From NCBI GenBank assembly GCA_019911865.1, contig JAIOJQ010000328.1, forward strand, positions 1 through 45,792: a DNA stretch of 45,792 bases, given 5' to 3'. Shown one piece after another: positions 6,788 to 45,792 of this stretch; the first letter of the stretch is position 1, and each line of letters opens with the position of its first letter. This stretch comes from Thermoanaerobaculia bacterium. Lineage in GTDB: Bacteria; Acidobacteriota; Thermoanaerobaculia; Multivoradales; JAGPDF01. Under the pieces are notes generated by a model, which searched no databases, was not told where the DNA came from, and saw only the letters and a program-made list of their open reading frames with translations. Made by a program: the position numbers and the translations under genes.

Positions 6788-8340
<1,553 letters not shown>

Positions 8341-8376
8341 CTCAGCTCTCCCGTTCCCGGCGCGACCGCGAAATCA

Positions 8377-11994: not shown

Positions 11995-12055
11995 GGTCTG
12001 GTCCGATTCCTCTTCCGGATTGATCGCGCGGCAGGGACGTGGGCGTCCGCGCCGG

Positions 12056-25152: not shown

Positions 25153-27069
25153 ATGCCCAAGCAGTACAGCCATGGCGGACGGGTGAGCTCGCGACCTGGC
25201 GGCGTTGCGGGCGGAGCGCCGGTCGACGAGCGCGCGCCACGCACGCTCCGCCAGCGCGTTTCGGCGCTCGGCAACTTGCCGCCGTTCCTGCGGCTGGTCT
25301 GGGAGATCCACCCCGCCATGGCCGCCGGCACGCTCGCGCTGCGCTTCGTGCGCGCGCTGCTCCCAGTGGCCACGCTCTTCGTCGGCAAACTGATCATCGA
25401 CGAGGTCGTACGGCTCGGCCGGCTCCCGGATCCACCGCCCGACCTCCCGGCCTGGCTCGCGAGCGGACTGGCGCGCACCCTGCTCGTGCTGCTGCTGTGC
25501 GAGCTCGGACTCGCCATCCTCTCCGACCTCTGCGGCCGGCTGGTGTCGCTGTTCGAGGCGTTGCTCGCCGAGCGGTTCTCGAACACCACGAGCGTGCGGC
25601 TGATGGAGCACGCGGCGACCCTCGACCTCGAGGACTTCGAGGACAGCGAGGTCCAGGACCAGCTCGAGCGGGCGCGCCGGCAGGCCGCCGGTCGCTCCAG
25701 CCTGCTCGGCCAGCTGTTCGGCCAGGCGCAGGACGTGGTGACGATCGTGGCGTTCGCCGCCGGGCTGGTGTTCTACGCCCCCTGGCTGATCGCCCTGCTG
25801 GTGGTCGCCGTGGTGCCCGCTTTCCTCGGCGAGACCCACTTCAACGCCCAGGGGTACGAGATCGCCTGGCGGCGGACGCCGGCGCGGCGCGAGCTCGACT
25901 ATCTGCGGGTGACCGGCGCCAGCGTCGAGACCGCCAAGGAGGTGAAGATCTTCGGCCTCGAGGCGTTCCTGATCGAGCGTTACCGGGCGCTCGCCGACGA
26001 CCTCTACGCGACCAACCGCGCGCTCGCCGTGCGGCGCGCCGGGTGGGGCGGGCTGTTCACCGCCGCGGGCACGCTCGGCTACTACGGCGCCTACGGCTTC
26101 ATCGCCTGGCGCACGCTGTCCGGCGAGCTGACGATCGGCGACCTGACCTTCCTGTCGGGATCGTTCCGCCGCCTGCGCAACCTGCTCGAGGGGCTGCTGA
26201 TCGGCTTCTCGCAGGTCGCCGGCCAGGCGCTCTACCTCGACGACCTGTTCTCGTTCTTCGAGCTCCAGCCCGAAATCGTCTCGCCAACCGACGCGGCGCC
26301 GTTCCCGAGCCCGATCCGCACCGGCTTCGTCTTCGAGGACGTCGGCTTCCGCTACCCCGGCGCCGAGCGCTGGGCGGTGCGCCACCTCTCGTTCACGCTC
26401 CGGGCGGGAGAAGTGCTGGCGCTGGTGGGCGAGAACGGTGCCGGAAAAACGACCCTGGTCAAGCTCCTGGCGCGACTCTACGACCCCGACGAGGGCCGCA
26501 TTCTGCTCGACGGGCGCGACCTCAGGGAGTACGACCTGGCGGCAGTGCGCGCGCGGGTCGGGGTCATCTTCCAGGACTTCGTGCACTACCATCTGACCGC
26601 CGCCGAGAACATCGCGGTCGGCCGCATCGAAGCGCGCGACGATCGCGCGCGGATCGAAGCCGCGGCCGAGCAGAGTCTCGCGGCCGAGGTGATCGCCAGG
26701 CTTCCCGAGGGGTACGACCAGCTGATCGGCAGACGCTTCAAGAAGGGAGTCGAACTCTCGGGCGGCGAGTGGCAGAAGATCGCCATCGCGCGGGCCTACA
26801 TGCGTGACGCCGACCTGCTCATCCTCGACGAGCCGACCGCGGCACTCGACGCGCGTGCCGAGTTCGAAGTCTTCCGGCGCTTCGCCGAGCTGTCGCACGG
26901 CAAGACCGCCGTGCTCATCTCCCACCGATTTTCGACCGTGCGCCGCGCCGATCGCATCCTCGTGCTCGCCGGCGGCGAGATCGAGGCCGCCGGCACCCAC
27001 GACGAGCTCGTCGCCCAGGACGGCCGCTACGCCGAGCTGTTCGACCTCCAGGCCGCGGGCTTCCGGTAG
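25153..27069 (+). CDS. ABC transporter, fused permease/ATP-binding protein (exporter type)
   Basis: Walker A LVGENGAGKTTLVKLL; signature VELSGGEWQKIAIARA; Walker B LLILDEPTAALDARAE. Confidence 0.95.
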   Translation: MPKQYSHGGRVSSRPGGVAGGAPVDERAPRTLRQRVSALGNLPPFLRLVWEIHPAMAAGTLALRFVRALLPVATLFVGKLIIDEVVRLGRLPDPPPDLPAWLASGLARTLLVLLLCELGLAILSDLCGRLVSLFEALLAERFSNTTSVRLMEHAATLDLEDFEDSEVQDQLERARRQAAGRSSLLGQLFGQAQDVVTIVAFAAGLVFYAPWLIALLVVAVVPAFLGETHFNAQGYEIAWRRTPARRELDYLRVTGASVETAKEVKIFGLEAFLIERYRALADDLYATNRALAVRRAGWGGLFTAAGTLGYYGAYGFIAWRTLSGELTIGDLTFLSGSFRRLRNLLEGLLIGFSQVAGQALYLDDLFSFFELQPEIVSPTDAAPFPSPIRTGFVFEDVGFRYPGAERWAVRHLSFTLRAGEVLALVGENGAGKTTLVKLLARLYDPDEGRILLDGRDLREYDLAAVRARVGVIFQDFVHYHLTAAENIAVGRIEARDDRARIEAAAEQSLAAEVIARLPEGYDQLIGRRFKKGVELSGGEWQKIAIARAYMRDADLLILDEPTAALDARAEFEVFRRFAELSHGKTAVLISHRFSTVRRADRILVLAGGEIEAAGTHDELVAQDGRYAELFDLQAAGFR

Positions 27070-29103: not shown

Positions 29104-30159
29104 ATGGCTCGACTCGCCCCTCTGTTCGCGATCGTGACGGCACTCGCGCTGCCGGGCGCCTCCGCGCGGGCCTTCCACGGCGGCGGCGTCGCGGCCTGCG
29201 GCGGCTGTCACGTCACCCACAACAGCGCGGACGGCTTGCCGATCGTGCCGGGGCCGGCCAACGACTACGCGCTGCGTTCGACGACGCCGAGCGAGGTCTG
29301 CCTGCTCTGCCACGCACAGTCGGCCGGCATGGTGCTCGGCCTCAACCCGCTCGCGCCGCCACCCGAACGGGGCGGCGGCAACTTCGTCTTCCTGCTCGAG
29401 GAGAACCTGAACGACGCGGCCGACGGCGCGACGCGCCCCATCCCGGGTGCGGCGGCGGGACACAACCTGGTCGCCCCCGCGTACGGCCTGACGGCGGACA
29501 CGCGCCACGGCGTCTCGCCCGGCGGCAGCTTCCCGGCCACCGAGATGGGTTGTACGAGCTGCCACGATCCGCACGGCCGCACGAGCTTCCGGATGCTCTG
29601 GGGCGCCGGCACGATCCGCGACGGGCTCTTCGTCTTCGGCGCGCCGGCGCCGGTCGCCAGCGGGCTGCCGCTGACCGCAGGTGCCGTCGAGCGGCGCGGC
29701 GCCCACTCCGCCTACGTCTCGGGCATGAGCGCCTGGTGCGGCAACTGCCACGGCGATTACCACCGCACCGTCGGCACGGAGAACTTCGAGCATCCGAACG
29801 ACGCCATGCTCTCGATCGCCGTCGTCGACCAGTACAACCGCTACCAGGGCGTACTCAATCCGACGGGCGGCAACCCGCTCGACGCCTACCTGCCCGAGGT
29901 GCCGTTCGAGGACGTCTCCACCGCGGTCGAGTCGACCGCGGGCCCGAGCGCGACGAGCCGCCTCTCCTGTCTCTCCTGTCATCGCGCCCATGCGAGCTCG
30001 GCGCCCGCGGCGCTCCGGTGGGACTTCGCGATCGCGACTCTGGGCGAGGACGGCGCCGTCTCGGGCTCGTGGCCGATCCCGAATCCGTACGGCGACCCGT
30101 CGCAACCCGGGCTGTGCTGGAAGTGCCACGCCGGCGGCGCCCCGCCTCCGACGCCCTGA
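29104..30159 (+). CDS. hexaheme c-type cytochrome, OmcS-like (paralogue 1)
   Basis: Signal peptide ending ARAFHGGGVAACGGCHVTHNS; six CxxCH (CGGCH, CLLCH, CTSCH, CGNCH, CLSCH, CWKCH); GHNLVAPAYG, CTSCHDPHG, MSAWCGNCHGDYH, LPEVPFED, CLSCHRAHAS. Confidence 0.9.
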   Translation: MARLAPLFAIVTALALPGASARAFHGGGVAACGGCHVTHNSADGLPIVPGPANDYALRSTTPSEVCLLCHAQSAGMVLGLNPLAPPPERGGGNFVFLLEENLNDAADGATRPIPGAAAGHNLVAPAYGLTADTRHGVSPGGSFPATEMGCTSCHDPHGRTSFRMLWGAGTIRDGLFVFGAPAPVASGLPLTAGAVERRGAHSAYVSGMSAWCGNCHGDYHRTVGTENFEHPNDAMLSIAVVDQYNRYQGVLNPTGGNPLDAYLPEVPFEDVSTAVESTAGPSATSRLSCLSCHRAHASSAPAALRWDFAIATLGEDGAVSGSWPIPNPYGDPSQPGLCWKCHAGGAPPPTP

Positions 30160-30183
30160 GGGCCTCTCTCCCGAGAAGGCGAC

Positions 30184-33100
30184 GTGACCCGACCCGAAAC
30201 GAGCTCGCACGCCTCCGCGCCGCCGCTGCGGCGGCGCGCCACGTTTCGCCTCGTCGCGCTGATCTTCGTGCTCTCCGGCGCGGCGGCGCTCGTCTACCAG
30301 GTCGTCTGGACGCGCGCTCTCGGCCTCGTCTTCGGCAGCTCGCACCTCGCGGTGACGACCGTTCTCGCGGTCTTCATGGGCGGCCTCGCGCTCGGCGGCG
30401 CACTCTTCGGTCGCCGGGTAGGCAGCGAGCGCCGGCTGCTCCGGCTCTACGGCCGGCTCGAGCTCGGCATCGCCGCCGCCGCGCTCGGCTTCGCCCTGCT
30501 CGTGCGTGCCTATCCGCTCCTCTATGTCCCGCTCGCGCGCCTGGGCGAGAGCTCGCCCCTCTACCTCTCGATCCTGCGCGTCGGCTTCGCCGCCCTTCTG
30601 CTCCTGGTTCCCACGACGCTCATGGGCGGCACGCTGCCGGTCCTCGCGGCCTTCGTCGGCGGGCGCGGTCGGGAATTCGCGGCAAGGCTCTCGTTGCTGT
30701 ACGCGCTCAACACCTTCGGAGCGGTGCTCGGGGCCGGCGCGGCCGGATTCGTGCTCCTCCGCTTCTTCTCGGTCTCCACCAGCCTCGGCGTGGCGATCGG
30801 CATCAACGTCCTGCTCGGCTTCGCCTGCCTCGCGCTCGACCGGCGGTTGCCGTCCGCCGCCTCGCCGGAGCCCGAAGCCGCCACGCCCCCGGCGCCGGCG
30901 AGCCCCGTCGGCTCGCCGCGGCCCATTTCGGATCCTCTCCCTGGCCGCCTCGTGCTCTTCGGCGCCGGCGTCTGCGGCTTCGCCGCGCTCGGCTACGAGG
31001 TGCTCTGGACGCGCGTGCTCGGCATGGTGATCGGGGCGAGCGTTTACGGCTTCACCGTGATGCTGATGGCCTTCCTGACCGGCATCGCCCTCGGCAGCTC
31101 GGCCTACGGAGCCTGGAACCGCAAGCGGTCGGCACGAGTCGACCGCGGGCCCGATGCGGCGGTCCGCACCTTCGCGATCGTGCAGGTCGCCATCGGCGCC
31201 GCCGGTCTCGCGGTGACCGGCGCCTTGCGGGAGCTGCCGTCGCACGCCTACCAGCTCCAATGGTCGCTCCTCGGCGGACCCGCCCACGGCTTCGCGACCC
31301 GCCAGGCGATCGATTTCCTGCTCGCCTTTCTCTACGTGCTCGTACCGGCCTTTCTCTCGGGGCTCGCCTTCCCGCTCGCGGCGCGCATTCGCGCCGAGCG
31401 CGGTGGCGAGCCGGCCTGCGCGGTCGGCGAGACTCTCGCCGTGAATACCGTCGGCGCGATCGCGGGGGCGGCAGCGAGCGGCTACGTGCTGGTCCACCTG
31501 GTCGGCATCGAGCGCTCGCTCCAGCTCCTGTCGCTCGCTGTCGCGGGCTGCGGACTGGTCGTCGCGGCCAGCCTGCGCGGCCCCCGCCTCGCCGTCGCCG
31601 CCGCGGCGGCGATCGGTGTCGCCGCCCTCCTGCTCGCCTCCGCCGGCGACGCGCTGCGCTCCTGGGACCGGCGCTTCTTCGCCGTCTACCAGTCGAACCG
31701 GCCCGACAAGTTCTCGACCCCCGAGAAGACGCGCGACACCCTGCGCAACACCGACGTGCTCCACTACGCCGAGGGGGTGCAGGCGATAGTCAGCTCGATC
31801 AAGGTCAAGGGCGGCACCCAGTCGTTCATCACCAACGGCCGGATCGAGGCGACGGACAACCCGCCGGACCTCGCCTGCCAGTACACGCTCGGGCACCTGC
31901 CGATGCTCCTGCACCCCGAGCCGCGGAAGGTCTTCGTGCTCGGCACCGGCAGCGGCATGACGCTCGGCGCGACCGCCGCTCATCCCTCGGTCGAGCGCGT
32001 CACCCTCGCCGAGATCGAACCCGCCGTGCTCGGCGTCGCGCGCACTTTCGCCCGCTACAACCACGATGTTCTCGAGGATCCCCGTCTGCGCGTCGTGCTC
32101 AACGACGGCCGCAACTTCCTGCTCACGACGCGCGAGCGTTTCGATGTCATCACCGCCGACCCCATCCATCCCTGGTTCAGCGGCGCCGGCTACCTCTACA
32201 CGAAGGAGTATTTCGACCTCGCGTCATCACGGCTCGCGCCCGGCGGCGTGATGTGCCAGTGGCTGCCGATCTACGAGCTGGATGCCGCGAATCTGCGCTC
32301 CATCGTTCGCACCTTCCTGTCGAGCTTCGAGCACGTGCTCGTATGGCTCACCCACTACGACGCGCAGCTCGTCGGCAGCAATGCGGCCTTCCGGATCGAC
32401 GAGCGAGAGCTCGACCGCCGCATCGCCCAGCCGGCCGTTCGCGGCGACCTCGACCGCATCCAGATGGGCTCGGCCCGCGACCTGCTCGCCTTCTTCGCCT
32501 TCGGCCGGCCCGGGGCCGAGGCTTACTCGGCTGGCGCCCGCCTGAATACCGACGACAATCTCTATCTCGAGTTTTCCGCCCCGCTGTCCATGGAGGAGCC
32601 GGCGCTCATCGCCGAGAACTTCGCCGGCCTGGTCGCCCATCGGGAGAGCCTGCTGCCCTACCTCGCGCCCGCCGACGGGGAGGAGCGGAGCCGGCAGGAG
32701 GCGCGCGCGTCGGCGGCACTGACCGCCGCCCGCATCGCCGATCCGATCCGTCACCGTGAACTGGCCGGGGAGATCGGCCCGACGGAGGCCGCGCGACTCG
32801 CCGCCGAACTCGGCCCCGCCCTGGGGGACTACGGACCCTGGCGCTACCTGCTCGGCGAGTTCGCGCGCGACCGGGCCCAGGCGCCGCAGCTTCTCCGCCA
32901 GGTTTTCCTGCCAGCGGTCAAGCCCGGGGGCGCCGTGGAGCCGATCCGGCTCGGCGCGATAGCCCGGCGGATGACCGGGGTGATCACGACGCTCGACTTC
33001 GTCGACGGCCGCGACGGTCGCGTGCTGGCGCACCACGAGATCCTGGGAGGACCCGAAGGCGCGGCCGGCGAGCTCGTCGAAGCCGCGTTCCGGGACGTCC

Positions 33101-33243
33101 GGGAGGCCTACGCCGCCGAGCGCCGCGCGGCGAGCGCGCGCGGCGAGAGCGCGCCGGCCGAGGCCAGGCTCCTCGAGCGCCTCGCCGCGGTCCTCGGCAG
33201 CCGCCTCGCCCGGACGGACGACACCGGCCTTCCCGTTCGCTGA
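30184..33243 (+). CDS. fused polytopic membrane domain + spermidine synthase-like (aminopropyltransferase) protein
   Basis: GTG start; N-terminal TM domain (LSGAAALVYQVVWTRALGLVFGSSHLAVTTVLAVFMGGLALGGALFGRR); SpeE-like domain (LGHLPMLLHPEPRKVFVLGTGSGMTLGATAAHPSVERVTLAEIEPAV…YTKEYFDLASSRLAPGGVMCQWLPIYEL). Confidence 0.9.
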   Translation: MTRPETSSHASAPPLRRRATFRLVALIFVLSGAAALVYQVVWTRALGLVFGSSHLAVTTVLAVFMGGLALGGALFGRRVGSERRLLRLYGRLELGIAAAALGFALLVRAYPLLYVPLARLGESSPLYLSILRVGFAALLLLVPTTLMGGTLPVLAAFVGGRGREFAARLSLLYALNTFGAVLGAGAAGFVLLRFFSVSTSLGVAIGINVLLGFACLALDRRLPSAASPEPEAATPPAPASPVGSPRPISDPLPGRLVLFGAGVCGFAALGYEVLWTRVLGMVIGASVYGFTVMLMAFLTGIALGSSAYGAWNRKRSARVDRGPDAAVRTFAIVQVAIGAAGLAVTGALRELPSHAYQLQWSLLGGPAHGFATRQAIDFLLAFLYVLVPAFLSGLAFPLAARIRAERGGEPACAVGETLAVNTVGAIAGAAASGYVLVHLVGIERSLQLLSLAVAGCGLVVAASLRGPRLAVAAAAAIGVAALLLASAGDALRSWDRRFFAVYQSNRPDKFSTPEKTRDTLRNTDVLHYAEGVQAIVSSIKVKGGTQSFITNGRIEATDNPPDLACQYTLGHLPMLLHPEPRKVFVLGTGSGMTLGATAAHPSVERVTLAEIEPAVLGVARTFARYNHDVLEDPRLRVVLNDGRNFLLTTRERFDVITADPIHPWFSGAGYLYTKEYFDLASSRLAPGGVMCQWLPIYELDAANLRSIVRTFLSSFEHVLVWLTHYDAQLVGSNAAFRIDERELDRRIAQPAVRGDLDRIQMGSARDLLAFFAFGRPGAEAYSAGARLNTDDNLYLEFSAPLSMEEPALIAENFAGLVAHRESLLPYLAPADGEERSRQEARASAALTAARIADPIRHRELAGEIGPTEAARLAAELGPALGDYGPWRYLLGEFARDRAQAPQLLRQVFLPAVKPGGAVEPIRLGAIARRMTGVITTLDFVDGRDGRVLAHHEILGGPEGAAGELVEAAFRDVREAYAAERRAASARGESAPAEARLLERLAAVLGSRLARTDDTGLPVR

Positions 33244-33256
33244 AGCGACGGCGTGC

Positions 33257-34219
33257 TCAGCGGGGCGGCGCCGGCGCGGCGCCGAGGCCGCCGTAGACCT
33301 GGACGCGGCCATCGGCCGATTGCGCCACGTAGGCGCGGCCCGCGGGGTCGAGCGCGAGGTCGTAGGGGAAGTAGAGCCAGCCCGGGGCGTCGCCCAATCC
33401 GAGGTGTTCCGACAGGCATTCGTTGTCCGCGATCCGCCAGCGCGTCACCATCATGCGCTGGGCGTCGAGCACGACCACGTGCCCTTCGGTATCCAGCGCG
33501 GCAGCGGTGGGATAGCCGAGGTGGAGCGGGCCCGAGCCGCGCACACCGACGCCGCCGACCCGCGCGCCCTCGAGCGTGTAGACGAGCACCCGTCCGCGCA
33601 GCGGGATCGTGACCACGACGCGGTCGCCCGAGACGTCGACGTGGCCGGGCGCCCATTCGGACCGCTCGTCCTCGGGATCCTCGGCGCCGAGGTCGATGCC
33701 GCCGAGGACGTGGCCGTCGCGGTCGGCGATCCAGACCTTCGAGTTGGCGCCGTCGGCGAGGAAGATCCGATCGCCGTCGAGCGACAGCGCGACCGAGCCG
33801 AGCGCGGGCGGCACGCTCCCCTCCGGCAGGTCGACGATCGGCACCTCGCGCCGGAAGCGACCGTCGAAGTCGATCTCGACGAGCGCCAGCCCCGGACCGC
33901 GGCGCGCGAGGACGAGGAGAAAGCCTTCGGGGTCGACCGCGAGATCCTCGGGCGACGCGAGCTCCTCGCCGCCCAGGATCTGCGCCTCGAACTGGCCCTC
34001 GCGGTCGAAGATCAGGATCCGGCTCGTCCGCGGGTCGCAGACGAAAACCTCGCCGGTGTGGGGATCCGCCGTCACGCAGTTGCCGTAAGCGATGTCGTCG
34101 CCGGCGACCGGCAGGCTCAAGCGCCCGAGGTAGCGCACCTCGGCCGCCGAAACCGTGGCGGGCGACGCCAACACGACGAGGAGCGCCGCGAGAGTGCGGA
34201 GCAGGACCCGGCCGGTCAA
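33257..34219 (-). CDS. NHL-repeat/beta-propeller protein with signal peptide (OscD-like candidate)
   Basis: Signal MTGRVLLRTLAALLVVLASPATVSAAE; repeated beta-propeller blades (PEDLAVDPEGFLLVLARR, YDLALDPAGRAYVAQSADGRVQVY). Confidence 0.85.
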   Translation of the reverse strand: MTGRVLLRTLAALLVVLASPATVSAAEVRYLGRLSLPVAGDDIAYGNCVTADPHTGEVFVCDPRTSRILIFDREGQFEAQILGGEELASPEDLAVDPEGFLLVLARRGPGLALVEIDFDGRFRREVPIVDLPEGSVPPALGSVALSLDGDRIFLADGANSKVWIADRDGHVLGGIDLGAEDPEDERSEWAPGHVDVSGDRVVVTIPLRGRVLVYTLEGARVGGVGVRGSGPLHLGYPTAAALDTEGHVVVLDAQRMMVTRWRIADNECLSEHLGLGDAPGWLYFPYDLALDPAGRAYVAQSADGRVQVYGGLGAAPAPPR

Positions 34220-35133
34220 CGGCCACTTCCGATCACGTCGAAGAGCTGGGCGCGACCGTTGCCGCCGTCGGAGACCAGCAGGGCACCGTTGGGCAGGCGC
34301 GCGAGCGCGTCCGGGAAGTAGAGCTGGCCCGGCTCCCAGCCTTTGCCGCCGCCGAGGCCGAGCAGCTGGCCCTCGCCGTCGAGGACGACGACCCGGTGCT
34401 GATGGCGGTCGAGGACGAAGAGGCGACCGCCGGGCTCGGCCACGATCCCCGCGGGCCAGAGCGGCACCGGGCTCTCCGAGGGCACCCGCATCCGCCCTGC
34501 GGGTCGGCCCTCCGCGTCGAAGCGCTCGAGCGCGCCGCGCTCGCCGATGCCGACCCAGAAGCCGCCGGCGCCGTCGCTCGCGAGCGCGGTGACGTTGCCC
34601 GCGATCGCGGCCCGAGCGACGACGGACGACCCCTGGAGCTTGGCGACCCGCCCGCGGCGCGCGTCCCAGACCAGCAGGCCGCCGTCCGAGGACTCCGCGA
34701 TGCGGCCGGCGACGATGCCGTCCGGCAGCGCCAGCTTGCGCGGCTCCTCCGCCGATGCGCCGCCGCGCACCGCCAGGAGCTCGGAGCCGGCGCCGCGCAG
34801 CACGGCGAGATACTCCCCGCCCACGAACGCCAGCGCGGCGGGCGGCGCCGGCAGGGCGACCTCGCGGCGCAGCGGCCAGCCGGATCCGACCCGGTGGAGA
34901 ATCAGCAGACGGTTGCCGTGCGCGTCGGCGACCGCGATCTCGTCGGCGCCGCCCACTGCCACCGCGACCGGCCAGCGCAGCGGGCGCTCGGCCGGTCCGT
35001 CGACCACCGCGGCGTAGCGCAGCAGGCGCTGGGCGAGCTGCTGGGTGAGGGCGGGCGCGGCGATCGCGACGACGAGCGCGAGCGCGATGGCGAGCGGGCG
35101 GCCGCCGCGCCGGGCGAGGCTTCGGGCGGGCAT
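34216..35133 (-). CDS. NHL-repeat/beta-propeller protein, second copy
   Basis: MPARSLARRGGRPLAIALALVVAIAAPALTQQ…; blades such as PAGIVAEPGGRLFVLDRHQHRVVVLDGEGQLL; start at 35131-35133; overlaps both neighbours. Confidence 0.85.
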   Translation of the reverse strand: MPARSLARRGGRPLAIALALVVAIAAPALTQQLAQRLLRYAAVVDGPAERPLRWPVAVAVGGADEIAVADAHGNRLLILHRVGSGWPLRREVALPAPPAALAFVGGEYLAVLRGAGSELLAVRGGASAEEPRKLALPDGIVAGRIAESSDGGLLVWDARRGRVAKLQGSSVVARAAIAGNVTALASDGAGGFWVGIGERGALERFDAEGRPAGRMRVPSESPVPLWPAGIVAEPGGRLFVLDRHQHRVVVLDGEGQLLGLGGGKGWEPGQLYFPDALARLPNGALLVSDGGNGRAQLFDVIGSGR

Positions 35134-36404
35134 CACTGGTTCCTCCTCGCCATCGATTTGTGGCAACTGACGCAGAGATCGGTCACCTCCCCGGCGTGGA
35201 GGTACTTGGGGTAGGGCGCCTCGTGGATCGCGTGACAGGAGCCGCAGTCCATCGGCGCTCCCGAGCGCGGATCGAGCTTGTCCTCGCCGAGGGGATGGCT
35301 GACCCCGTGCTGGTGGGAGTGGCAACTGCTGCAGACCGCGACCGGATCGTCGACGAACAGGCGCGGCTGCCCGGCGCCGTGCGGCGCGTGGCAGGTGGTG
35401 CACGAGACCTGCCCCGCGTGCAGGGCGAAGCGCCCGGGCTGCCGGGAGGCGGCGCCGCCCGGATCGTGACAAGCGAGGCAGGTCGCCTCCTCCTTGCGCT
35501 GGAGGATCGCCGCGCCCTCCCCCGCGTGCGGGTTGTGGCAGTCGGTGCAGCGCCCGCCCGCCGCCGAGACGTGGCCGAAGCGCGCCTGGCGCGACTCCTC
35601 GACCTGGTCGGCGTGGCAGTCGCCGCACAGCTCGTCCTCGGGCTTGACCAGGGCGAAAGGGCGCTCCGCGGAGCTCGCGACGTGACAGGTCGAGCACGTG
35701 CCGCTGCCGAACGGCTCGTGGACGATCTGCCGGAGCAGTCCGGGCCGATCCGAGGCGTGCGGATCGTGGCAGGTCGCGCATTCGGCCTTCTCGACCGGGT
35801 AGCCGCCGTGAATCGACCGGAAGCGGGCGTCGACGGCGTGGCAGCTCGTGCACGAGGCGCCCGGCTTGATCAGCCCCGGCGTGTCGCTGGCGTGCGCCTC
35901 GTGACAGGTCGCGCACCGGCCTTGCGCGAACGGCGCGTGCGGGGACTTGCGCTGCTGCCACTCCGCGACGTCGACGTGGCACTCCTGGCAGAGCTCGGTC
36001 GCCGGCCGCGCGAGGAGGCCGGCGAAGGGGGCACCGTGCGCGGAGTGACAGATGGCGCAGCGCGCCTCCGCGACCGGCGCATGGACCACCTTGCGCGCCA
36101 GCTGGGCGGTAACGTCTTCGTGGCAGCGCGCGCACAGCGGCCCGGGCTGATCGAGGAGCAGGCCCTCGAGGCGGGAGACGTGGGGGTTGTGGCACGCGGA
36201 GCAGTCGCCCTCCGCGGCGGGCGGATGCTTCACCTTCGCCGCCAGCGCGTCCGCCAGGTCGTGGCACTCGAGGCAGACCTTGAGCTCGTCGACCTCGGCC
36301 GCCTGCGGCGCCCCGGCGGCGAACGCCGCCGTTCCGATCATTGCGAGCGCCGGAGCTCCGAGCAGCGCGAGCGTCGCGAGCGCGATCCGGATCGGAGCGT
36401 TCAT
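35133..36404 (-). CDS. 16-heme c-type cytochrome (cytochrome c3/c7 or NrfB-type CxxCH repeats)
   Basis: 16 CxxCH motifs counted in 423 aa from MNAPIRIALATLALLGAPALA. Confidence 0.92.
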   Translation of the reverse strand: MNAPIRIALATLALLGAPALAMIGTAAFAAGAPQAAEVDELKVCLECHDLADALAAKVKHPPAAEGDCSACHNPHVSRLEGLLLDQPGPLCARCHEDVTAQLARKVVHAPVAEARCAICHSAHGAPFAGLLARPATELCQECHVDVAEWQQRKSPHAPFAQGRCATCHEAHASDTPGLIKPGASCTSCHAVDARFRSIHGGYPVEKAECATCHDPHASDRPGLLRQIVHEPFGSGTCSTCHVASSAERPFALVKPEDELCGDCHADQVEESRQARFGHVSAAGGRCTDCHNPHAGEGAAILQRKEEATCLACHDPGGAASRQPGRFALHAGQVSCTTCHAPHGAGQPRLFVDDPVAVCSSCHSHQHGVSHPLGEDKLDPRSGAPMDCGSCHAIHEAPYPKYLHAGEVTDLCVSCHKSMARRNQ

Positions 36405-38332
36405 CGTGCACCTCCCGCGGCCGCCCCGTCGGTATGGCAGGTGTCGCACGCCCTCTCCGCGAACGGCGGGTGGGCGACCGGCAGCAGCAGACCCCCCTCC
36501 TTCGCGGCGTGCGGATCGTGGCAGCTGCCGCAATCGAGCGTCTTCGCCGGCAACCCGAGGTGCGCCGCGGCGAAGTCCCTGCCGTCGCCGGGATGACAGC
36601 TCAGGCAGCCTTCGGCGACCGGCTGCCGGAGCAGCGAGGGCTGCGGCGCGACGTGCGGCGAGTGGCAGTCGATGCACCCCTCCGGCTCGGCGGCCGGCGG
36701 GTGCGCCACCTGCTGGTCGATCGCCTGCTCGACCGCCGTGTGGCACGAGCCGCAGAGCGGCCGCACCGGCGCGCGCAGGAACGCCCGCGTGGCGCTGGCG
36801 TGCGGCTGGTGGCAGGCGGTGCACGAGCGACCCGCGCCCTCGTGGGTGGAGCCGCCGACCGGCGCCTCGACCTTGACGTCGTGGCACTCGGCGCACAGCC
36901 GCGCGGTCGGCGCGGTGAGCAGCGCCGGCACCGCGGCCGCGTGCGGCAGGTGGCAGCTCGCGCAGTCGCCGTCGGCGAAGGGCGGGTGCTGCGGCAGGCC
37001 GTCCGCCGCCCGCATCTCAACCTCGTGGCAGGTCGCGCAGAGCTCCTTGCCCTGGGCGACCAGCAGGTTCGCGCCGCCCGCGTGGGGCTCGTGGCACGAC
37101 GAGCAGGCGCCGGTGGCGACCGGCTGGTGGACGACCGGCAGACCCGAGCGGGTGCCGATCTCGCCGTGGCAGTTGCCGCACAGCGCGTCCTGGTCGCGGA
37201 CCAGTATCGCCTTGCGCCCGGTGCCGTGCGGATCGTGACACTCCGAGCACTCGCCGCGCGACGGCTCGTGGACGACGGCGGCCCCGGCTCCGACCGGGTC
37301 CTCGTGGCAGCTCACGCAGAGCGCGCGCGGCTCCTCGCGCAGCAGCCCCGCGACCTGGCTCTGGTGGCCGGCGTGACACGCCGTGCAGTCGCTCGCGGCC
37401 GGGTGGGGCGCCGGCAACGCCATCGCCTTCGCCACGTCGCCGTGGCAGCTCGTGCAGAGCTCGGCGGGCGCCGCGCGGAGCAGCGCGGGGTGGTCCGTCG
37501 TGTGCGCGTCGTGGCACGCGAGGCAGTCGCCGCGCAGCACCGGCCCGTGCACCGAGGGCGCCGAGCCGGCTTCGACCGCGGCGTGGCAGTCGAGACAGAC
37601 CCGCGCGCCACCGGCCGGCTTGCCGGACCCTCCTTCGTGGCAGCTCGTGCAGTCCATCTCCGGGTGGATCGCGACGCCGAGCAGCCCCGCGCGCGCGCCG
37701 CTGTGCGGCCGGTGGCAGCTCGCGCAGTCGGTGCCGGCGACCGCCATCCCCGCGTGCGCGCCAGCCCAGCCGTCCGCGCTCGCGTGGCAGCCCGCGCAGA
37801 GCGCGTCGCCCGCCTGGAGCAGCTGCTTCGGGTGCGCGCTGCCGTGGGGCGAGTGGCACGACGAGCAGCCCTCGGCGGCCGGCGGGTGCGGCACCTCGCC
37901 GTCGAGCCCGGCGGCGGCGTGACAGCCGGCGCAGAGCTCGCGCTCGGGCAGGACGAGCAGCGCCTTCTGGTTCGAGCCGTGCGGATCGTGGCAGGACGAA
38001 CACTGCTCGACCCCGGGGTGCCGGTGCTCGGCCTTCGTCCCGAGCTTCGACACGTCGTGGCAGGACAGGCAGAGAGCCGGCTCGTTCTCGGTCAGGCGCA
38101 GAGCACCGACCAGCCCGTGCGGCTTGTGGCAGGAGTCGCAGCCCTCGGCGAGCGGCGCGTGCGGCACCCGGACGTCCTTGCCGACGTCGGAGTGGCAGGA
38201 GGTGCAGGTGGAGCCCTGCTCGAAGCGGCCGCCGCGCTTGAGCTGCGCGTCGGCGCGTGGCGCGAGAGCGAGCCCGCCGAGGCCGGCGAGAGCTGCCGCG
38301 AGCGCGAGAGCCCGGATCGGTTGGGTGGTCAT
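36401..38332 (-). CDS. 26-heme c-type cytochrome
   Basis: 26 CxxCH motifs counted in 643 aa; signal peptide MTTQPIRALALAAALAGLGGLALAPRADA. Confidence 0.93.
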   Translation of the reverse strand: MTTQPIRALALAAALAGLGGLALAPRADAQLKRGGRFEQGSTCTSCHSDVGKDVRVPHAPLAEGCDSCHKPHGLVGALRLTENEPALCLSCHDVSKLGTKAEHRHPGVEQCSSCHDPHGSNQKALLVLPERELCAGCHAAAGLDGEVPHPPAAEGCSSCHSPHGSAHPKQLLQAGDALCAGCHASADGWAGAHAGMAVAGTDCASCHRPHSGARAGLLGVAIHPEMDCTSCHEGGSGKPAGGARVCLDCHAAVEAGSAPSVHGPVLRGDCLACHDAHTTDHPALLRAAPAELCTSCHGDVAKAMALPAPHPAASDCTACHAGHQSQVAGLLREEPRALCVSCHEDPVGAGAAVVHEPSRGECSECHDPHGTGRKAILVRDQDALCGNCHGEIGTRSGLPVVHQPVATGACSSCHEPHAGGANLLVAQGKELCATCHEVEMRAADGLPQHPPFADGDCASCHLPHAAAVPALLTAPTARLCAECHDVKVEAPVGGSTHEGAGRSCTACHQPHASATRAFLRAPVRPLCGSCHTAVEQAIDQQVAHPPAAEPEGCIDCHSPHVAPQPSLLRQPVAEGCLSCHPGDGRDFAAAHLGLPAKTLDCGSCHDPHAAKEGGLLLPVAHPPFAERACDTCHTDGAAAGGAR

Positions 38333-38351
38333 GAGATCGACGTCCAGAGCC

Positions 38352-40085
38352 TCAGCCGCCGTGACCGGGAACCGCCGGCGCCTCCTCCGGCGCCGTCGGC
38401 AGGATCTCGAAGCGGGCGAGAGCCGCCTGGTCGATCCAGATCTCGGAGCGCTCGCGGAGCTTGGCGATCACCTCGTCGATCCGCGCCACGACCTCCTGGT
38501 TCTCGAGCTTCGCCTTGACGTTGCCCGAGACGGCCTCGAACGGATAGTGGTCCTGCTCCTCGTAGACGTCGACCTGGAGGAGCACCCAGCCGTTCGGGCT
38601 CTCCCTGGGGCCGAGAATGTCGCCCTTGCGCGCGTCGAGGAGATCCTCGCGGAAATTGAGCAGGCCCTCGGTCGCCAGCACCCAGCCGCGGTCGCCGCCG
38701 GCCTCCTTGTAGGAGTCGGTCGAGTTCTGGCGGACGAGCCAGGCGAACTCCGCGCCGCCCTTTGCCAGGCCGGCCAGCCGCTCGGCCTGCTCGCGGGTCG
38801 GCACCGTGAGCTGGAGCAGGTGCAATCGCGGCGGCTTGCGGAACTCGTCGCGGTGCTCGTCGTAGTAGGCACGCGCCTCGGCCGGAGTCACCTCGACCCC
38901 GGCGGCGACCGTCTCCTTGAGGTACTTCGAGGCGAGATGGCTGAGCTCGAGCGCATGCAGCTCGCGCCTCACCTTCGGCGTGTCGCCATAGCCGCGGCGC
39001 AGGCCCTCGGCGATCAGCATCTCCTCGAAGATCAGCTCGTCGAGAACGCCCGGCTTGTATTCGGCGGCGAGCACCGGGTTGGTGACTCCCGACCAGGCCG
39101 TGCCGAGCCGGCCGGCAAGCTCCTTGATGGTCAGCGTGCGGCCGGCGAGCCGCGCCACGGCGCGCTCGGGATCGGCGAACCTGGGCAGCAGCTTGCCGTC
39201 GTGCATGCGCTGAACCTCGATCGACTCGTAGGCCGCCCAGTCGACCTCCAGGCCGAGCGACGGCTCGAGCCGCTCGACGAGCGCCTTGCGGAGCGCGAGC
39301 TCCTGCCGGTGGCGGAGCTCGACCAGGACCCGGCGGGTCCGCTCGGCGAACTTTTCGGGATCGGCCGGCTCGACCTTCACCAGCCGGGCGAGGGTCCAGC
39401 CCCATGGCGTCGCGAGCGGCGCCGAGAGCGCGCCGGGCTCGCTCGTCTTGGCGAACTCGAGCAAGGACTGGTGGAGGTCGGTGAAGGCCGTGTTCATTCG
39501 GCCGCCGCGCCCGGCGTAGGGATCCTGGGAGTCGGTCCCGGCCAGCTCCGCCCAGGCCTCCTCGCCGGCCGGTTCGAGCTTCGCTCGCAGCGCCTCGAGC
39601 TCGGCCCGGTCGCGCCGGGTGAGGATCCGGAGCGTCGCGAACCGGTAGACGTCCGCGTAGACTTCGCGCGCCTTCGGCTCGGAGAAATCGAGCCGCGCCA
39701 GGATCTCCTCGCGGAAGACCTCGCCACGCGCCTTCGACTCGCGGCGCGCCACGAGCTTGCGCGCGAGCTGCGGATCCGCGTCCATCTCGAGTGTCCGCGC
39801 CTCCTGGGCGAGGAGGGTGTCGTTGACCAGGCGGAACATCAGCTGCTCGAGGTCGAAGCGTGACCGCTGCCGAACCTGCTGGGAGCGGTGGATCTCCTCG
39901 AGGACGATCTCGATGTCCTCGCTGTAGAGCGCTTCGCCGTTGACGCGGGCAACGACGGTCGAGCCGGCGTCGGGGGGATCGAGCTCCTGCCCGACGCCCG
40001 GCAGCGGCGCGGCGAGCAAGGCGAGGGCAGAGAGCCAGCGGACGGGTCGCGCCGCACGGCGCGCCCGCGGTGGTGAAGTGCGCAT
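38352..40085 (-). CDS. secreted PpiC-type (parvulin) peptidyl-prolyl cis-trans isomerase (OscH-like candidate)
   Basis: Signal …LALLAAPLPGVGQ; VNGEALYSEDIEIVLEEI (SurA-N-like); two parvulin-like regions (RILTRRDRAELEALRAKLEPAGEEAWAELAGTDSQDPYAGRGGRMN…; LHLLQLTVPTREQAERLAGLAKGGAEFAWLVRQNSTD…GDRGWV). Confidence 0.9.
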   Translation of the reverse strand: MRTSPPRARRAARPVRWLSALALLAAPLPGVGQELDPPDAGSTVVARVNGEALYSEDIEIVLEEIHRSQQVRQRSRFDLEQLMFRLVNDTLLAQEARTLEMDADPQLARKLVARRESKARGEVFREEILARLDFSEPKAREVYADVYRFATLRILTRRDRAELEALRAKLEPAGEEAWAELAGTDSQDPYAGRGGRMNTAFTDLHQSLLEFAKTSEPGALSAPLATPWGWTLARLVKVEPADPEKFAERTRRVLVELRHRQELALRKALVERLEPSLGLEVDWAAYESIEVQRMHDGKLLPRFADPERAVARLAGRTLTIKELAGRLGTAWSGVTNPVLAAEYKPGVLDELIFEEMLIAEGLRRGYGDTPKVRRELHALELSHLASKYLKETVAAGVEVTPAEARAYYDEHRDEFRKPPRLHLLQLTVPTREQAERLAGLAKGGAEFAWLVRQNSTDSYKEAGGDRGWVLATEGLLNFREDLLDARKGDILGPRESPNGWVLLQVDVYEEQDHYPFEAVSGNVKAKLENQEVVARIDEVIAKLRERSEIWIDQAALARFEILPTAPEEAPAVPGHGG

Positions 40086-41146
40086 CAACCGGACTCCTTC
40101 ATGACCACTGCGGCCTCCCCGCCAGAACCGGCGAGGAGCATACGCGTGGCGATTCGTTCGAGCAGATTCCGCAGCTGCGCGCCGCGCGAGTGGACGCGGC
40201 CGCGACCGAACCACCCCTCTCGGTCGAAGCCGCCACCTTCGAGCGAGCCGACGAAGAGGATGCGGCCCGACTCGGCGTCGAGCAGCCGTACCGCCACCGC
40301 GACCACCGGCTCGGGCGAGCTGCCGCCGCGAACTTCCCAGCGCTCGACCGAACCGGTGACCAGCCGGGCGGCGCCGCAGGCGTCGCGCACCTCGGCGCGG
40401 ACCTCCGCCGAGAGCTCGCCCCATCGGATGCCGCCCGGGCCGCGCAGCGCCGTCGTCACGCAGCCCGGCTCGGCGAGCGGGATCCCGGCGGCGACGAGCA
40501 GCGCGCGCATCGTCTCGGTCGCCGCCGCCGCGACCTCGAGCCCGTCCGCCACCTCGTTGACGGTGAAGGGCACGATGCCGACGAGGTCGGGCGGCGCGGC
40601 GACCCCGACTCCCGGGCTCGCCGGCGCGACCGCGCCGAGCTCGACGCCCGCCAGCAGCTCGGTGACCACCGGCGGCAGCAGGGTCGCGAGGTCGGCGACC
40701 GCGCCGATCCCCAGCAGGCCGCGCGTGTCCAGCCCGGAGCGGGCGACCGCGGCGGCCCACGCCATGCGGCCCGTCCGCCCGTCGTAGAGCCGGGCCGAAA
40801 CCGTGAGATCGGGAACCAGATGCTCGGGCGCGTCGTGGATCGCCACCGAGATCAGCCAGTCGGCCCCGAGCGCCGCCGCGATCGCGCGCAACCGCTCGGG
40901 CGGCGCGCCGTCGGCGTTGCGCAGGCGCTCGGCGCGCAGCGCGGCCCGGGTCCGCTCGGCGTCGATCACGGTCGCCCTCCGGGCGAGCTCGGCAGTCACC
41001 GCCTGCTCGAACCGCGCGCCGAGTCCCTCGACCCGCACGCCCTGCCGCACGGGCAGCAGCGCGACCGTGTCGGCCAGCGCTGCGCGGCCGGCCAGGGCGC
41101 CGGCGGCGAGCAGGAGCGGAGCGAGGAGGGAGCGGCGGCGCATCAC
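40085..41146 (-). CDS. CsgG-like/curli-assembly-type periplasmic protein
   Basis: Signal peptide; VALLPVRQGVRVEGLGARFEQAVTAELARRATVIDAERTRAAL…ALGADWLISVAI…SARLYDGRTGRMAWAAAV. Confidence 0.65.
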   Translation of the reverse strand: MMRRRSLLAPLLLAAGALAGRAALADTVALLPVRQGVRVEGLGARFEQAVTAELARRATVIDAERTRAALRAERLRNADGAPPERLRAIAAALGADWLISVAIHDAPEHLVPDLTVSARLYDGRTGRMAWAAAVARSGLDTRGLLGIGAVADLATLLPPVVTELLAGVELGAVAPASPGVGVAAPPDLVGIVPFTVNEVADGLEVAAAATETMRALLVAAGIPLAEPGCVTTALRGPGGIRWGELSAEVRAEVRDACGAARLVTGSVERWEVRGGSSPEPVVAVAVRLLDAESGRILFVGSLEGGGFDREGWFGRGRVHSRGAQLRNLLERIATRMLLAGSGGEAAVVMKESG

Positions 41147-41149
41147 GGG

Positions 41150-41782
41150 CTACTTGAGCAGCGTCTCCACGAGCCGTCGCACGCAGCGTCGCGTCGTCAC
41201 CGAGAGCGGTTCGCCCTCGTTGCCGAGCAGGCGCGCCGAGGCGACCGAGCCCTTCTCGGTGTGCGTCGCCGCCCAGATGATGGCGCCCGACTCGGTCTCG
41301 ACCAGCTGGGCGTCGACGGTCACCGTCGGGACGCCGGCCGAGCCCGAGCGCAGCACCTCGGACTGCAGGACGGCGCCCGCGATGACCGCCTGGACACCGA
41401 GCGTCTTGCCGAGTTCGACGATCTGTTCGGTGCTCGGACGCTGGGCCCGGTTGGCGCCAAATTTGACCGTGGCGGCGTTCACCTCGCCGGGCTCGACGAC
41501 GTCGACCGCGCCGGTCGCGAGCAGCTCGGTGACCAGCAGTCGGGTCACGCGCGCGGCCGCGGCGGTGTCGTTCGAGTAGTTCTCGAACGGCAGCACGGCC
41601 ACCCTCTCGACGAACGAGAAGTCGATCTTCGGGTTGGTGAACTTCGTCGGCCCCATCGACCCGCAGCCGCTGAGGGCCCCGAGGCAGGCGACGAGGAGGG
41701 CGAGGCATCGGGTCGAGCTTCGGAGTTTTCTCACGGTTCGCACCTTCCGATCAGAAGGAGAGGGTGGTGCCTGCGTTGACAC
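41150..41782 (-). CDS. CsgG-like lipoprotein
   Basis: Lipobox-like LGALSGCGSM; VERVAVLPFENYSNDTAAAARVTRLLVTELLATGAVDVVEPGEVNAA…QAVIAGAVLQ…VTVDAQLVETESGAIIWAATHTEKG. Confidence 0.8.
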   Translation of the reverse strand: MSTQAPPSPSDRKVRTVRKLRSSTRCLALLVACLGALSGCGSMGPTKFTNPKIDFSFVERVAVLPFENYSNDTAAAARVTRLLVTELLATGAVDVVEPGEVNAATVKFGANRAQRPSTEQIVELGKTLGVQAVIAGAVLQSEVLRSGSAGVPTVTVDAQLVETESGAIIWAATHTEKGSVASARLLGNEGEPLSVTTRRCVRRLVETLLK

Positions 41783-43901
41783 TGGTCACGGCGGTCTCCG
41801 GGCCGTCCGCGATCGCCGAGCTCGAGCGCGTCATGGAGCCGAAGAGCACCAGTCGGGCCGCGAGCCGGTAGTGCAGGGCGAGGCTCTCGTTGCGGGTTTG
41901 CGCGCCTTCGCGCTGGGAGAAGTCGTCCCAGCCGAGCGCGAGGCTCAACTTCGGTCCCGGGTTCCACGACAGATTGTAGCTCTGCCGAATCGTGGCGCCG
42001 GTCGACTCGTCGAAATAGGCGATCGTGCCGCCGAGGCCGAGCGCGGCGCCGGGTGTCCAGCCGAAATCGACGAACAGGCTGGAGCTCTCGAAGCGCGGCC
42101 CGCCGGCGACGGCGCTCTCCGTGCGGCTCCAGGTGTAGCCCCCGCCCAGGCGCCAGTCCTGGCGCGGGCGCATGTCGATCCGCTCCGTCCAGGTGAGCGT
42201 CTCGCGCGCCCCGCCGGTCCCCGGGGTCTCGATCCGGCTGGTCGACAGGTTGGTCACGAGACGCAGCTCGTCGAGCAGGTCGAGGGCGATCGTCGCGCGC
42301 GCGTAGCGGAGGTTCGACAGCTCGTGCCGCTCGTCGGAGTCGGTCCGCACCCCGGTCGCGAGCAACGCGTCGACGGTGTCGAGTGGATTCCAGCGCAGGC
42401 TCGCTCCGAAGTCGTCGGAGATCCGGGTCAGGTCGCGTCCGGCGCCCTCCTCGTAGCGCGAGTGCCGGTAGGCGACCGAGAGCGTCAGGTCGCGCGCGAG
42501 GTCGAGGCCGAGTCCGCCGTTGATCGCCGAACCGGTGGTGTCCCGCCGCACCACGCCGCCCACCGTCGTCGAGTCGTTGCTCGCGTCGGCCGAGGCGTGG
42601 AAGTGGAGTCGCTCCGAGACCCGCCACGCCAGGCTCGCGGCCGCCCGGTAGAGGTCGGCGCTGCGCTCGGGCTGGAGCGCCTCGACCGCGACGTCGCGCA
42701 GGGCGACGAGCTCGGTGACGCGGACCTCGTTCTCCGGGTTGATCGAGACGTTGACGGCCTTCAGATAACGCTCGGAGGACTCCAGGAAGTGGAGCTGATA
42801 GCGGAGCAGATCGGGGTCCCAGGCGCGCTCGAGGATCGTCACCGGCTGCCAGACCAGGCCGTCCGCGCTCTGGTAGACGTCCCAGGCGACCTGGGCGCCC
42901 GAGAGGCGGTCGACGACGATGTCGAGCCGGTGCGCCGGCACCGGCAAACCGAGGTCGAGGGCGAGGTTGCGGAAGGTGTTGGCGCCGCCGATTTCGATCG
43001 CCGGCGCGACCGGCGTCGAGAGGTCGCCGTCGACGAGGCCGGGCGCCGCGTCGAGTTCGCCGAGGGCGGGCGAGAGGTCGACGCCGGCGAAACCGCGCAC
43101 CGCCGCGATCGGCTCCGCGAGCTCGCCCTCGCCGCGGCTCTGCTCGGCTTCGAGCCGGCCGGCGACGCCCGCGAAGGAGAGGCGGACGCGATCGCCCGCC
43201 AGCGCGCGCGCCGCGGTGAGCCGCAGGTCGTGACGCAGCTGGGTGACGTCGAGGGCGGCCGCGCCGCCGGTGAGCTCGTTGTACCTGCCGCCGTACCCGA
43301 CGCTCCAGCGCGGGCGCTCGAACAGCAGGTCGACGCGCCCGACCCGCTGCTCGAGCCCGCGGCCGAGTGCCGCCACGCTCGCCGACTCGTCGGCGAGGTC
43401 GCGCCAGGAGAGGCCGAGGCGGAAGCCGCGCGGCGCGCGCCAGGAGAGGCTGGTGGTGAGCGCGCGCGACTCGAACTCCGCCGCGTCCGCGCCGGTGTCG
43501 GACCGCAGGCTCTCCCAGGCGACGCGCCACGACAGGTTCGGCGCGCCGTAGCGCAGCTCGGCCACCGGCTGCACGGTGGTGCGCGAGAAGGCCTCGACGC
43601 CGTCGAGCTGCGCGGCCTGCTCGGCGTAGAGGCCCGAGAGGTGCAGGCTCAGGTAGGGCGTGAGCTCCTGGACGACCGCGACGTTGGCGGAGTGATCGCT
43701 GCCGTCGACCACGGCGTCGCCGAGATCGGTGCTCGTCCAGCCGAGCCGGAGGGCGCCGTCGAGCGTGCCGGCGCGTGCCGCCGAGGCCGCCGCCAGAGCG
43801 AGCCCCGCCAGAACGAGGCTGCGCCCGGCACCCTCCCGCGAAACCTGCGACGCGCGTCTCACGGCGGGCATTCTCACAGCCAGCTCGAACGCCGCCACCA
43901 T
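41751..43901 (-). CDS. outer-membrane beta-barrel protein (OscG-like candidate), start possibly 43871
   Basis: 716 aa; signal peptide; repeated alternating amphipathic strands; terminates in …SVNAGTTLSF with a C-terminal Phe. Confidence 0.85.
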   Translation of the reverse strand: MVAAFELAVRMPAVRRASQVSREGAGRSLVLAGLALAAASAARAGTLDGALRLGWTSTDLGDAVVDGSDHSANVAVVQELTPYLSLHLSGLYAEQAAQLDGVEAFSRTTVQPVAELRYGAPNLSWRVAWESLRSDTGADAAEFESRALTTSLSWRAPRGFRLGLSWRDLADESASVAALGRGLEQRVGRVDLLFERPRWSVGYGGRYNELTGGAAALDVTQLRHDLRLTAARALAGDRVRLSFAGVAGRLEAEQSRGEGELAEPIAAVRGFAGVDLSPALGELDAAPGLVDGDLSTPVAPAIEIGGANTFRNLALDLGLPVPAHRLDIVVDRLSGAQVAWDVYQSADGLVWQPVTILERAWDPDLLRYQLHFLESSERYLKAVNVSINPENEVRVTELVALRDVAVEALQPERSADLYRAAASLAWRVSERLHFHASADASNDSTTVGGVVRRDTTGSAINGGLGLDLARDLTLSVAYRHSRYEEGAGRDLTRISDDFGASLRWNPLDTVDALLATGVRTDSDERHELSNLRYARATIALDLLDELRLVTNLSTSRIETPGTGGARETLTWTERIDMRPRQDWRLGGGYTWSRTESAVAGGPRFESSSLFVDFGWTPGAALGLGGTIAYFDESTGATIRQSYNLSWNPGPKLSLALGWDDFSQREGAQTRNESLALHYRLAARLVLFGSMTRSSSAIADGPETAVTSVNAGTTLSF

Positions 43902-43951
43902 CCGCGAGGGTGGCCCCGCCGCAACCCGCGGCGCGGGGCGGCCGGCCCCCC

Positions 43952-43987
43952 AAAAAAAGCGACCCGGGGTGCGGACACCCCGGGTCG
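43952..43987 (-). terminator. intrinsic terminator downstream of the 44024..45175 cytochrome gene
   Basis: Minus strand: GACCCGGGGTG-TCCG-CACCCCGGGTC (perfect 11-bp stem, extendable by one C-G) then GC and TTTTTTT. Confidence 0.92.
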
Positions 43988-44023
43988 ATGTGGCGCCGGC
44001 AGGCGCCGGATCTCTACCTCAGA

Positions 44024-45175
44024 TCACGGCGTGACGAGGTGGTCGAACTCGTCCTGCGTGTGGCACTTGTTGCAGAGCGACTTCTGGTCGTCGTCCGCCG
44101 GCAGCGTCGCCTGGGCGTACGGGATCTTCCAGGAGCCCGAGGTCGCGCCGTCGGTCTCGATGTTCTGGATCGTGAAGTCCCAGCGGCCCATGTCCTGCGC
44201 CGAGGTGGCGTGGGCGCGGTGGCAGGTGACGCAGGCGACCATCGACGTGCCCGCGGTCGGACCGGCGGTCGAGGTGGTCGTGACCGAGGGATCCTCGAAC
44301 GGCGTGTCCGGCAGGTAGGCGTCGACCACGGTGCCGCTGCCGCAGGGATCGGTCGGGCCGGTCGGCGGGTTGTTGACGCAGTCGGCCGTGCCGCGATACT
44401 CGTTGTACTTGGCGACGATCGTCGCGGTCAGAGCCTCGCCCGACGGGTGGATCAGGTTGCCGGACGAAGCGTGGAAGTCGCCGTGGCAGGTGGAGCACCA
44501 CTCGCTGTAGCCCGAGTGGTAGGCGTTGTGGTTCGCCAGGCCCTCGATCGAGTTGTAGCTGATGCCCTCGGCCACCAGGGTGCCGCCGAACGTCACCTCG
44601 TCCCCGCCGACGTCGATCGTCTGGCCGGTCTGGTAGAGGAAGCGGAAGCTGTCCTGGCCGTGCGGGTCGTGGCAGCTCGTGCACTCGAGCTGGTTGTTCG
44701 CCAGCTCGGCCTGGCCGCCCGGGGGATAGAGCAGCGTGGTGTCCCAGTTGCTGCCCTTGATGCCGGAGCGCAGGTTGTGGCCGGCCCGCTGGCCCGGGAT
44801 CGGGTTGGTCGCGCCGCCGCGGCCGTCGTTGACGTTGTCCTCGAGCAGGAACACGAAGTTGCCGGCGCTGTAGTACTCCTGCAGCGTCGGATTCAGTGGA
44901 TCCGACTCGAACACGTTGTAGCTGGCGCTGTTGTTGCCGTGGCAGCGCAGGCAGGTGTCGGTCGCGTTCGGCAGCAGCAGCAGGTCGGTGTAGCCGAAGC
45001 CCGGCGCCAGGCCCGGCCCGGTGCCGGTGGCGTCGAGGTTCATGCCCAGGTTGTTGGCGCTGTTGTGCATGGTGTGACAGCCCTGGCAGTAGCCGACCGA
45101 CTCGTGGTGGAACGCCATCGCCGGGGCGGCGAGCAGCACCGCGACGGCGGCGATCAGAAGCATCCGGTTCTTCAT
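44024..45175 (-). CDS. hexaheme c-type cytochrome, OmcS-like (paralogue 2)
   Basis: Signal …LAAPAMAFHHESVGYCQGCHTMHNS; six CxxCH (CQGCH, CLRCH, CTSCH, CSTCH, CVTCH, CNKCH); GHNLRSG, CTSCHDPHG, YSEWCSTCHGDFH, YLPDTPFED, CVTCHRAHATS, SLCNKCHTQDE. Confidence 0.93.
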   Translation of the reverse strand: MKNRMLLIAAVAVLLAAPAMAFHHESVGYCQGCHTMHNSANNLGMNLDATGTGPGLAPGFGYTDLLLLPNATDTCLRCHGNNSASYNVFESDPLNPTLQEYYSAGNFVFLLEDNVNDGRGGATNPIPGQRAGHNLRSGIKGSNWDTTLLYPPGGQAELANNQLECTSCHDPHGQDSFRFLYQTGQTIDVGGDEVTFGGTLVAEGISYNSIEGLANHNAYHSGYSEWCSTCHGDFHASSGNLIHPSGEALTATIVAKYNEYRGTADCVNNPPTGPTDPCGSGTVVDAYLPDTPFEDPSVTTTSTAGPTAGTSMVACVTCHRAHATSAQDMGRWDFTIQNIETDGATSGSWKIPYAQATLPADDDQKSLCNKCHTQDEFDHLVTP

Positions 45176-45466: not shown

Positions 45467-45792
45467 GCGAAGGCGCCGGCGGTTTCGCTTCGGCAAGAGC
45501 GGCTGGAGCAGTAGTGAGGCACGCGGTCAACTTACGCCGTGGCCGGCGGCGGGAGGCCGCCTGGGCGGGTGGCAGCGTCGTGCTGGCCGGGTAGCGACGA
45601 CCGGCGCGAGGTCAGCCGCGGCCGAGCCGGCGGGCGCGACGGGCGAGCATGGCGTGGGTCGTCGCTACCCGGCCAGCACGACGCTGCCACCCGCCCAGGC
45701 GGCCTCCCGCCGCCGGCCACGGCGTAAGTTGACCGCGTGCCTCACTACTGCTCCAGCCGCTCTTGCCGAAGCGAAACCGCCGGCGCCTTCGC
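45467..45792. repeat. 136-bp inverted repeat (45467-45602 / 45657-45792) with a 54-bp spacer, ending at the window edge
   Basis: Right arm is the reverse complement of the left arm from the last base (GCGAAGGCGCCGGCGG…GTAGCGACGACC); mirrored by ORFs 45532..45720 (-) and 45539..45727 (+), which share their first 20 and last ~20 residues. Confidence 0.9.

Follow-up and report, generated by a model that had tools for sequence, protein, structure and literature searches.

The window, i.e. the whole stretch of 45,792 nucleotides that was analysed, is one entire contig (JAIOJQ010000328.1) of a 3.76-Mb Thermoanaerobaculia assembly in 458 contigs (GCA_019911865.1). Two hexaheme cytochromes of the OmcS family, here called A and B, lie at the two ends of a gene block. 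A (44024-45175, minus strand, 383 aa) heads a tight minus-strand run of eight genes, and a strong terminator-like hairpin (43960-43987, minus strand; 12-bp stem, tail CTTTTTTT) stands between it and the block. The block, all on the minus strand, begins with a 716-aa protein (41751-43901) in the beta-barrel/porin slot, a class that we assign from its position and sequence character; it has no match in Pfam or NCBIfam, and homologues occupy the same place in the gene order of relatives. Then follow an LpoB/CsgG-like lipoprotein (41150-41782; PF13036, 5e-6; PF03783, 1e-4), a 353-aa secreted protein with no known domain (40085-41146), a SurA/PpiC-type peptidyl-prolyl isomerase (38352-40085; PF13145, 2e-27), a GSU2495-like cytochrome with 26 CxxCH motifs (36401-38332; PF09699, 5e-123), a cytochrome with 16 CxxCH motifs (35133-36404, its start inferred from an overlapping ATG; PF09699, 4e-76) and two NHL-repeat propeller proteins (34216-35133, PF01436, 3e-13; 33257-34219, PF01436, 2e-13). 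B (29104-30159, plus strand, 351 aa) is encoded on the opposite strand, past the far end of the block, with a 1019-aa spermidine-synthase-like membrane protein (30184-33243, plus strand; PF01564, 4e-24) behind it. Both hexaheme reading frames are intact.

A and B each have a signal peptide and six CxxCH motifs in the order found in OmcS, and the layout which the sequence-only reading had described for the pair, motif by motif, is present in both genes. The OmcS motifs that it had quoted also match the PDB sequence, as far as the alignments show. The two proteins are 42% identical over 357 columns. In a sequence search of the PDB, OmcS of G. sulfurreducens (6ef8/6nef) was the sole significant match for both (E 3e-31 for B, 1e-25 for A), and the predicted folds gave the same answer. 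The AlphaFold2 models, built from 58-row alignments as monomers without hemes or neighbouring subunits, reached pLDDT 79 and pTM 0.80 for B and, less confidently, pLDDT 70 for A; with Foldseek, 6ef8 was the only significant PDB match of either model (B: E 1e-17, TM 0.74/0.64; A: E 3e-13, TM 0.62/0.58). The resemblance to OmcS that had been noticed from the sequence is thus borne out by sequence and predicted fold. The window proteins are shorter than OmcS, which has 432 aa.

Apart from partial rows and one exception, exactly 12 His columns are conserved in the 58-sequence alignment, which includes the OmcS clade. Six of them lie within the CxxCH motifs and six elsewhere (23, 37, 133, 172, 243 and 322 in P0002 numbering). 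This conservation is far above chance, and 12 is the number needed for six bis-His hemes. His37 of A and His39 of B align with the CHxxH His of OmcS, i.e. with the position of the cross-subunit ligand, which we take to be His16. The ligands of OmcS follow an 11 + 1 scheme, in which one His is given to the neighbouring subunit (PMC6584659). The sequence-only reading had named models lacking the distal His ligands as evidence that would speak against it; the distal and the cross-subunit His residues are present in both proteins. We conclude that A and B are both members of the OmcS family and have kept its ligands, including the equivalent of the cross-subunit His. The sole untruncated exception among the 58 sequences is a Zixibacteria hexaheme (L029:1126-2193), in which Asp replaces the cross-subunit His.

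A locus headed by the hexaheme GSU2501 and followed by the eight-gene block GSU2500-2493 has been described in Geobacter (PMC12977616), and that source, on the authority of Shen et al. (2025, Cell Chem Biol), links the block to the maturation and secretion of OmcS. The window has the same leading hexaheme followed by eight genes, including the 26-heme and 16-heme cytochromes, and the likeness extends to the PpiC protein and the NHL proteins in the relatives checked. It differs in the second hexaheme, which is encoded on the opposite strand past the last gene of the block, and no omcS/omcT-type copies were seen 5' of the leading hexaheme, where the contig ends. Judged by its gene content and order, the window locus would be an OmcS secretion block of the Geobacter kind. 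The same block order is found in Krumholzibacteriota, Zixibacteria, Geobacteraceae, Anaeromyxobacter, Nitrospirota and Rokubacteria.

The bracket formed by two hexahemes is also found elsewhere. In two genomes of the same order, the whole block is bracketed by an A-type and a B-type protein: in G053 (L121) the convergent layout is identical to that of the window, whereas in the Thermoanaerobaculia genome G017 (L012, CALZIK010000200.1) the trailing copy is on the block strand, as it is in the Krumholzibacteriota-type locus L020. Geobacter AOG1 (G072) and H2geo (G074) have convergent hexahemes about 13 kb apart, and in AOG1 the block was confirmed to lie between them. Moreover, two OmcS-like hexahemes and barrel proteins were reported in 2021 in a cluster of the Acidobacteriota MAG Ca. 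P. svalbardensis AM4; the description of this cluster mentions neither an eight-gene block nor the ligands nor a distinction between two kinds of subunit (PMC8528874). The earlier suggestion that the two cytochromes bracket one electron-transfer locus is therefore sound: the bracket is real, widespread and conserved, and not new in outline, and the locus between its arms corresponds to the known OmcS secretion block.

In several phyla, OmcS-type nanowire loci contain or adjoin a gene for a spermidine-synthase-like membrane protein (besides the window, at L121:4-1281, L139:4777-7080, L060:5813-8830, L071:7260-10028, L050:1316-3826 and L059:1339-3552). The identity is 46-52% in Geobacter H2geo and in a Vicinamibacterales genome, and in the latter the gene comes directly after the LpoB-like gene. 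Genomes have 0-3 such genes, and they are found at nanowire loci more frequently than this number predicts.

The rest of the window includes a narGHJI nitrate reductase operon (5331-12946) with an adjoining cytochrome c gene, and these genes may also allow the organism to respire nitrate. No tRNA genes or Rfam families were found in the window. Elsewhere in the genome, contigs C223, C63 and C236 (L137, L140, L138) carry further multiheme cytochromes, i.e. a decaheme, a pair with about 19 and about 17 hemes, and an 11-heme membrane protein beside a NapC-like gene; most of the doubled-CxxCH matches of the genome fall within the window. The contig is closed by an inverted repeat (arms 45467-45607 and 45652-45792, 141 nt, 99% complementary, 44 nt spacing) that is probably an assembly fold-back.

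This repeat is one of the grounds for asking whether the contig could be mis-binned or chimeric, the locus having come from another organism such as a Krumholzibacteriota bacterium. The assembly contamination is 6%, the best named matches of A in the species collection belong to Krumholzibacteriota and allies (44-47%), and the OmcS-type cytochromes of the window are absent from three genomes of the same genus (G001-G003), meaning that the locus is patchy within the genus. However, one of these three, G003, has a counterpart with 85% identity to the ABC transporter encoded at 25153-27066, and hence the contig is most likely of this genus. The block, too, is nearer to genomes of the same order: A is 55% identical to its match in G051, and the barrel-slot and 26-heme proteins are 35% and 53% identical to those of G053, whereas the respective values for the Krumholzibacteriota-type L020 are lower, 27% and 43%. 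On the strength of the transporter and the same-order similarity of the block we reject mis-binning, which we regard as very improbable.

In a tree of 79 proteins, A and B fall in a deep clade (100/98) apart from OmcS, which groups with Geobacteraceae and Nitrospirota copies; in other words, neither is orthologous to omcS. Within their clade the two are separated in accordance with position. When more same-order copies were included, A joined the leading copies of G051 and G053 (100/100), while the clade of B (100/98) has 15 members, of which nine are trailing copies and none is a leading one. The two types differ at the heme-6 motif, which has the form CNKCHxxD in A-type proteins and in OmcS (CNKCHTQD in A, CNKCHAKD in OmcS) and is lost from the B type (CWKCHAGG in B); the Asn and Asp are missing in 17 of 18 B-type proteins. 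The tree requires about four changes of type.

The distribution of the losses along the protein was investigated with 107 columns that are conserved in the 31 A-type proteins of the A/B clade, a column being counted as lost if it is kept in fewer than half of the 18 B-type proteins. Near the first and last hemes 12 of 31 columns are lost, compared to none of the 76 in the core (Fisher p 6e-8); two of the 12 belong to the definition of the B type, which does not involve the N-terminal columns. Within the OmcS clade, it is chiefly the heme-6 end that is affected (p 0.003). The hemes of OmcS are stacked in sequence order and its subunits are arranged head to tail (PMC6584659), so the heme-1 and heme-6 ends are the expected subunit contacts. 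The idea that B is merely a fast-evolving copy was rejected, as the two types are equally diverse overall (median identity 0.49 for the B type, 0.50 for the A type) and the B type has retained the core. The loss of the signature at both ends of B in this clade weakens the model of a simple one-ended cap; among proteins of the OmcS clade, the heme-6 end is the main site of loss. The column comparison found no B-specific end signature, and the ends of B-type proteins are variable.

A possible third subunit type is a trailing hexaheme at the far end of the block with the tail CNKCHE(N/Q)Dx(Y/H)KQ, seen in Geobacteraceae and allies (L176, L180, L174, L056, L068 and L083).

Whole-genome searches found exactly one B-type protein, together with one or two A-type proteins, in all 11 non-Geobacter-type genomes that have a B type; several Geobacter-type genomes have no B-type protein under this definition. 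The translation and termination signals of the two types also differ. A is preceded by the Shine-Dalgarno sequence AAAGGAGA (dG -8.7) and B by a weak one (dG -1.5), and the medians for the two types are -9.5 and -6.3 kcal/mol (p 0.0025, kinship ignored). A terminator-like hairpin stands behind 19 of 40 A-type genes and behind none of 14 B-type genes (a count that likewise ignores kinship); in the window, the 12-bp hairpin with its T-rich tail is directly 3' of A. The pattern fits an abundant subunit with read-through into its machinery, and a scarcer partner.

The reading that we favour, with moderate confidence, is that A is the filament subunit and B a minor or terminal companion, rather than a second full nanowire. 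The observed family, fold, ligands, operon order, conservation and divergence of the B ends are its basis; the tie to secretion is carried over by analogy from the published Geobacter work, and from these we infer how A might polymerise, where electrons might pass and what B might do. A would pass into the periplasm, acquire six bis-His hemes and be handled by the PpiC/SurA-type isomerase, the lipoproteins and the barrel protein of the block. Outside the cell it would stack head to tail, with His37 serving as a ligand to one of the neighbour's hemes, the part played by the cross-subunit His in OmcS, and the 26-heme and 16-heme cytochromes would pass electrons over the periplasm and the outer membrane towards the filament. 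B would be a low-abundance companion, located at the end of the filament or between filament and conduit.

The sequence-only reading had proposed that both proteins could be filament cytochromes, perhaps as two nanowire types or as a mixed filament. Family, fold and ligands hold for both proteins, but their equivalence does not, given that B-type ends have lost conserved residues. Two separate nanowires, each a homopolymer made under different conditions like OmcS, OmcE and OmcZ in Geobacter, have in their favour that B keeps the cross-subunit His, for which a protein that does not polymerise would have no need; B also keeps the fold and all 12 His residues, is transcribed separately on the other strand, and Geobacter does make several nanowires (PMC12307469). 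Nevertheless, we think this unlikely: the variable B-type ends are without residues that are invariant in A-type proteins and OmcS, a B type always comes with an A type and never in more than one copy in the 11 genomes, and the translation signals of B are weak. A filament composed of both proteins throughout, alternating or freely mixed, would agree with their 42% identity, common fold and ligands and shared secretion block, yet free mixing requires matching ends, and it is exactly at the ends that the two differ; with no B-specific end signature found, such a filament seems quite improbable. It could also be argued that A and B form no long filaments at all and act as six-heme electron carriers, either secreted or on the outer surface, with a porin-cytochrome-type conduit serving them, since there is dispute over what the filaments do physiologically (PMC11077965). 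We consider this improbable too, because the cross-subunit His and the A-type ends are conserved from phylum to phylum, as expected of a self-assembling subunit.

Beyond the window, the preferred reading of A as filament subunit and B as companion could be generalised, although only tentatively and with some doubt on our part: OmcS-type systems might in general have two components, a self-assembling A type, to which OmcS belongs, and one end-altered B-type hexaheme that starts, ends or wires up the filament. The B type would then have arisen about four times, including a block-adjacent copy in Geomonas. Curli offer an analogy, with a major fibre subunit (CsgA) and a sequence-divergent minor partner (CsgB), and the CsgG-related lipoprotein domain is also found in the window locus. 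The subunits themselves are not homologous, and a nucleator role for B would be a matter of analogy.

The Geobacter secretion block is already known, as is the presence of two OmcS-like genes in an acidobacterial cluster. In the literature consulted we found no earlier description of a division into two subunit types that differ at their ends, with a single B type per genome, though it may have been noticed before. Open questions about cytochrome nanowires include their anchoring, initiation and termination (PMC12307469) and the function of the OmcS-like protein that goes with the secretion block (PMC12977616). The comparison gives a short list of residues at both subunit ends that are kept from Geobacter to Acidobacteriota and Krumholzibacteriota in the A type and lost in the B type. 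With these residues named, both the anchoring and ending of the filament and the part played by the OmcS-like companion become testable by mutation in Geobacter.
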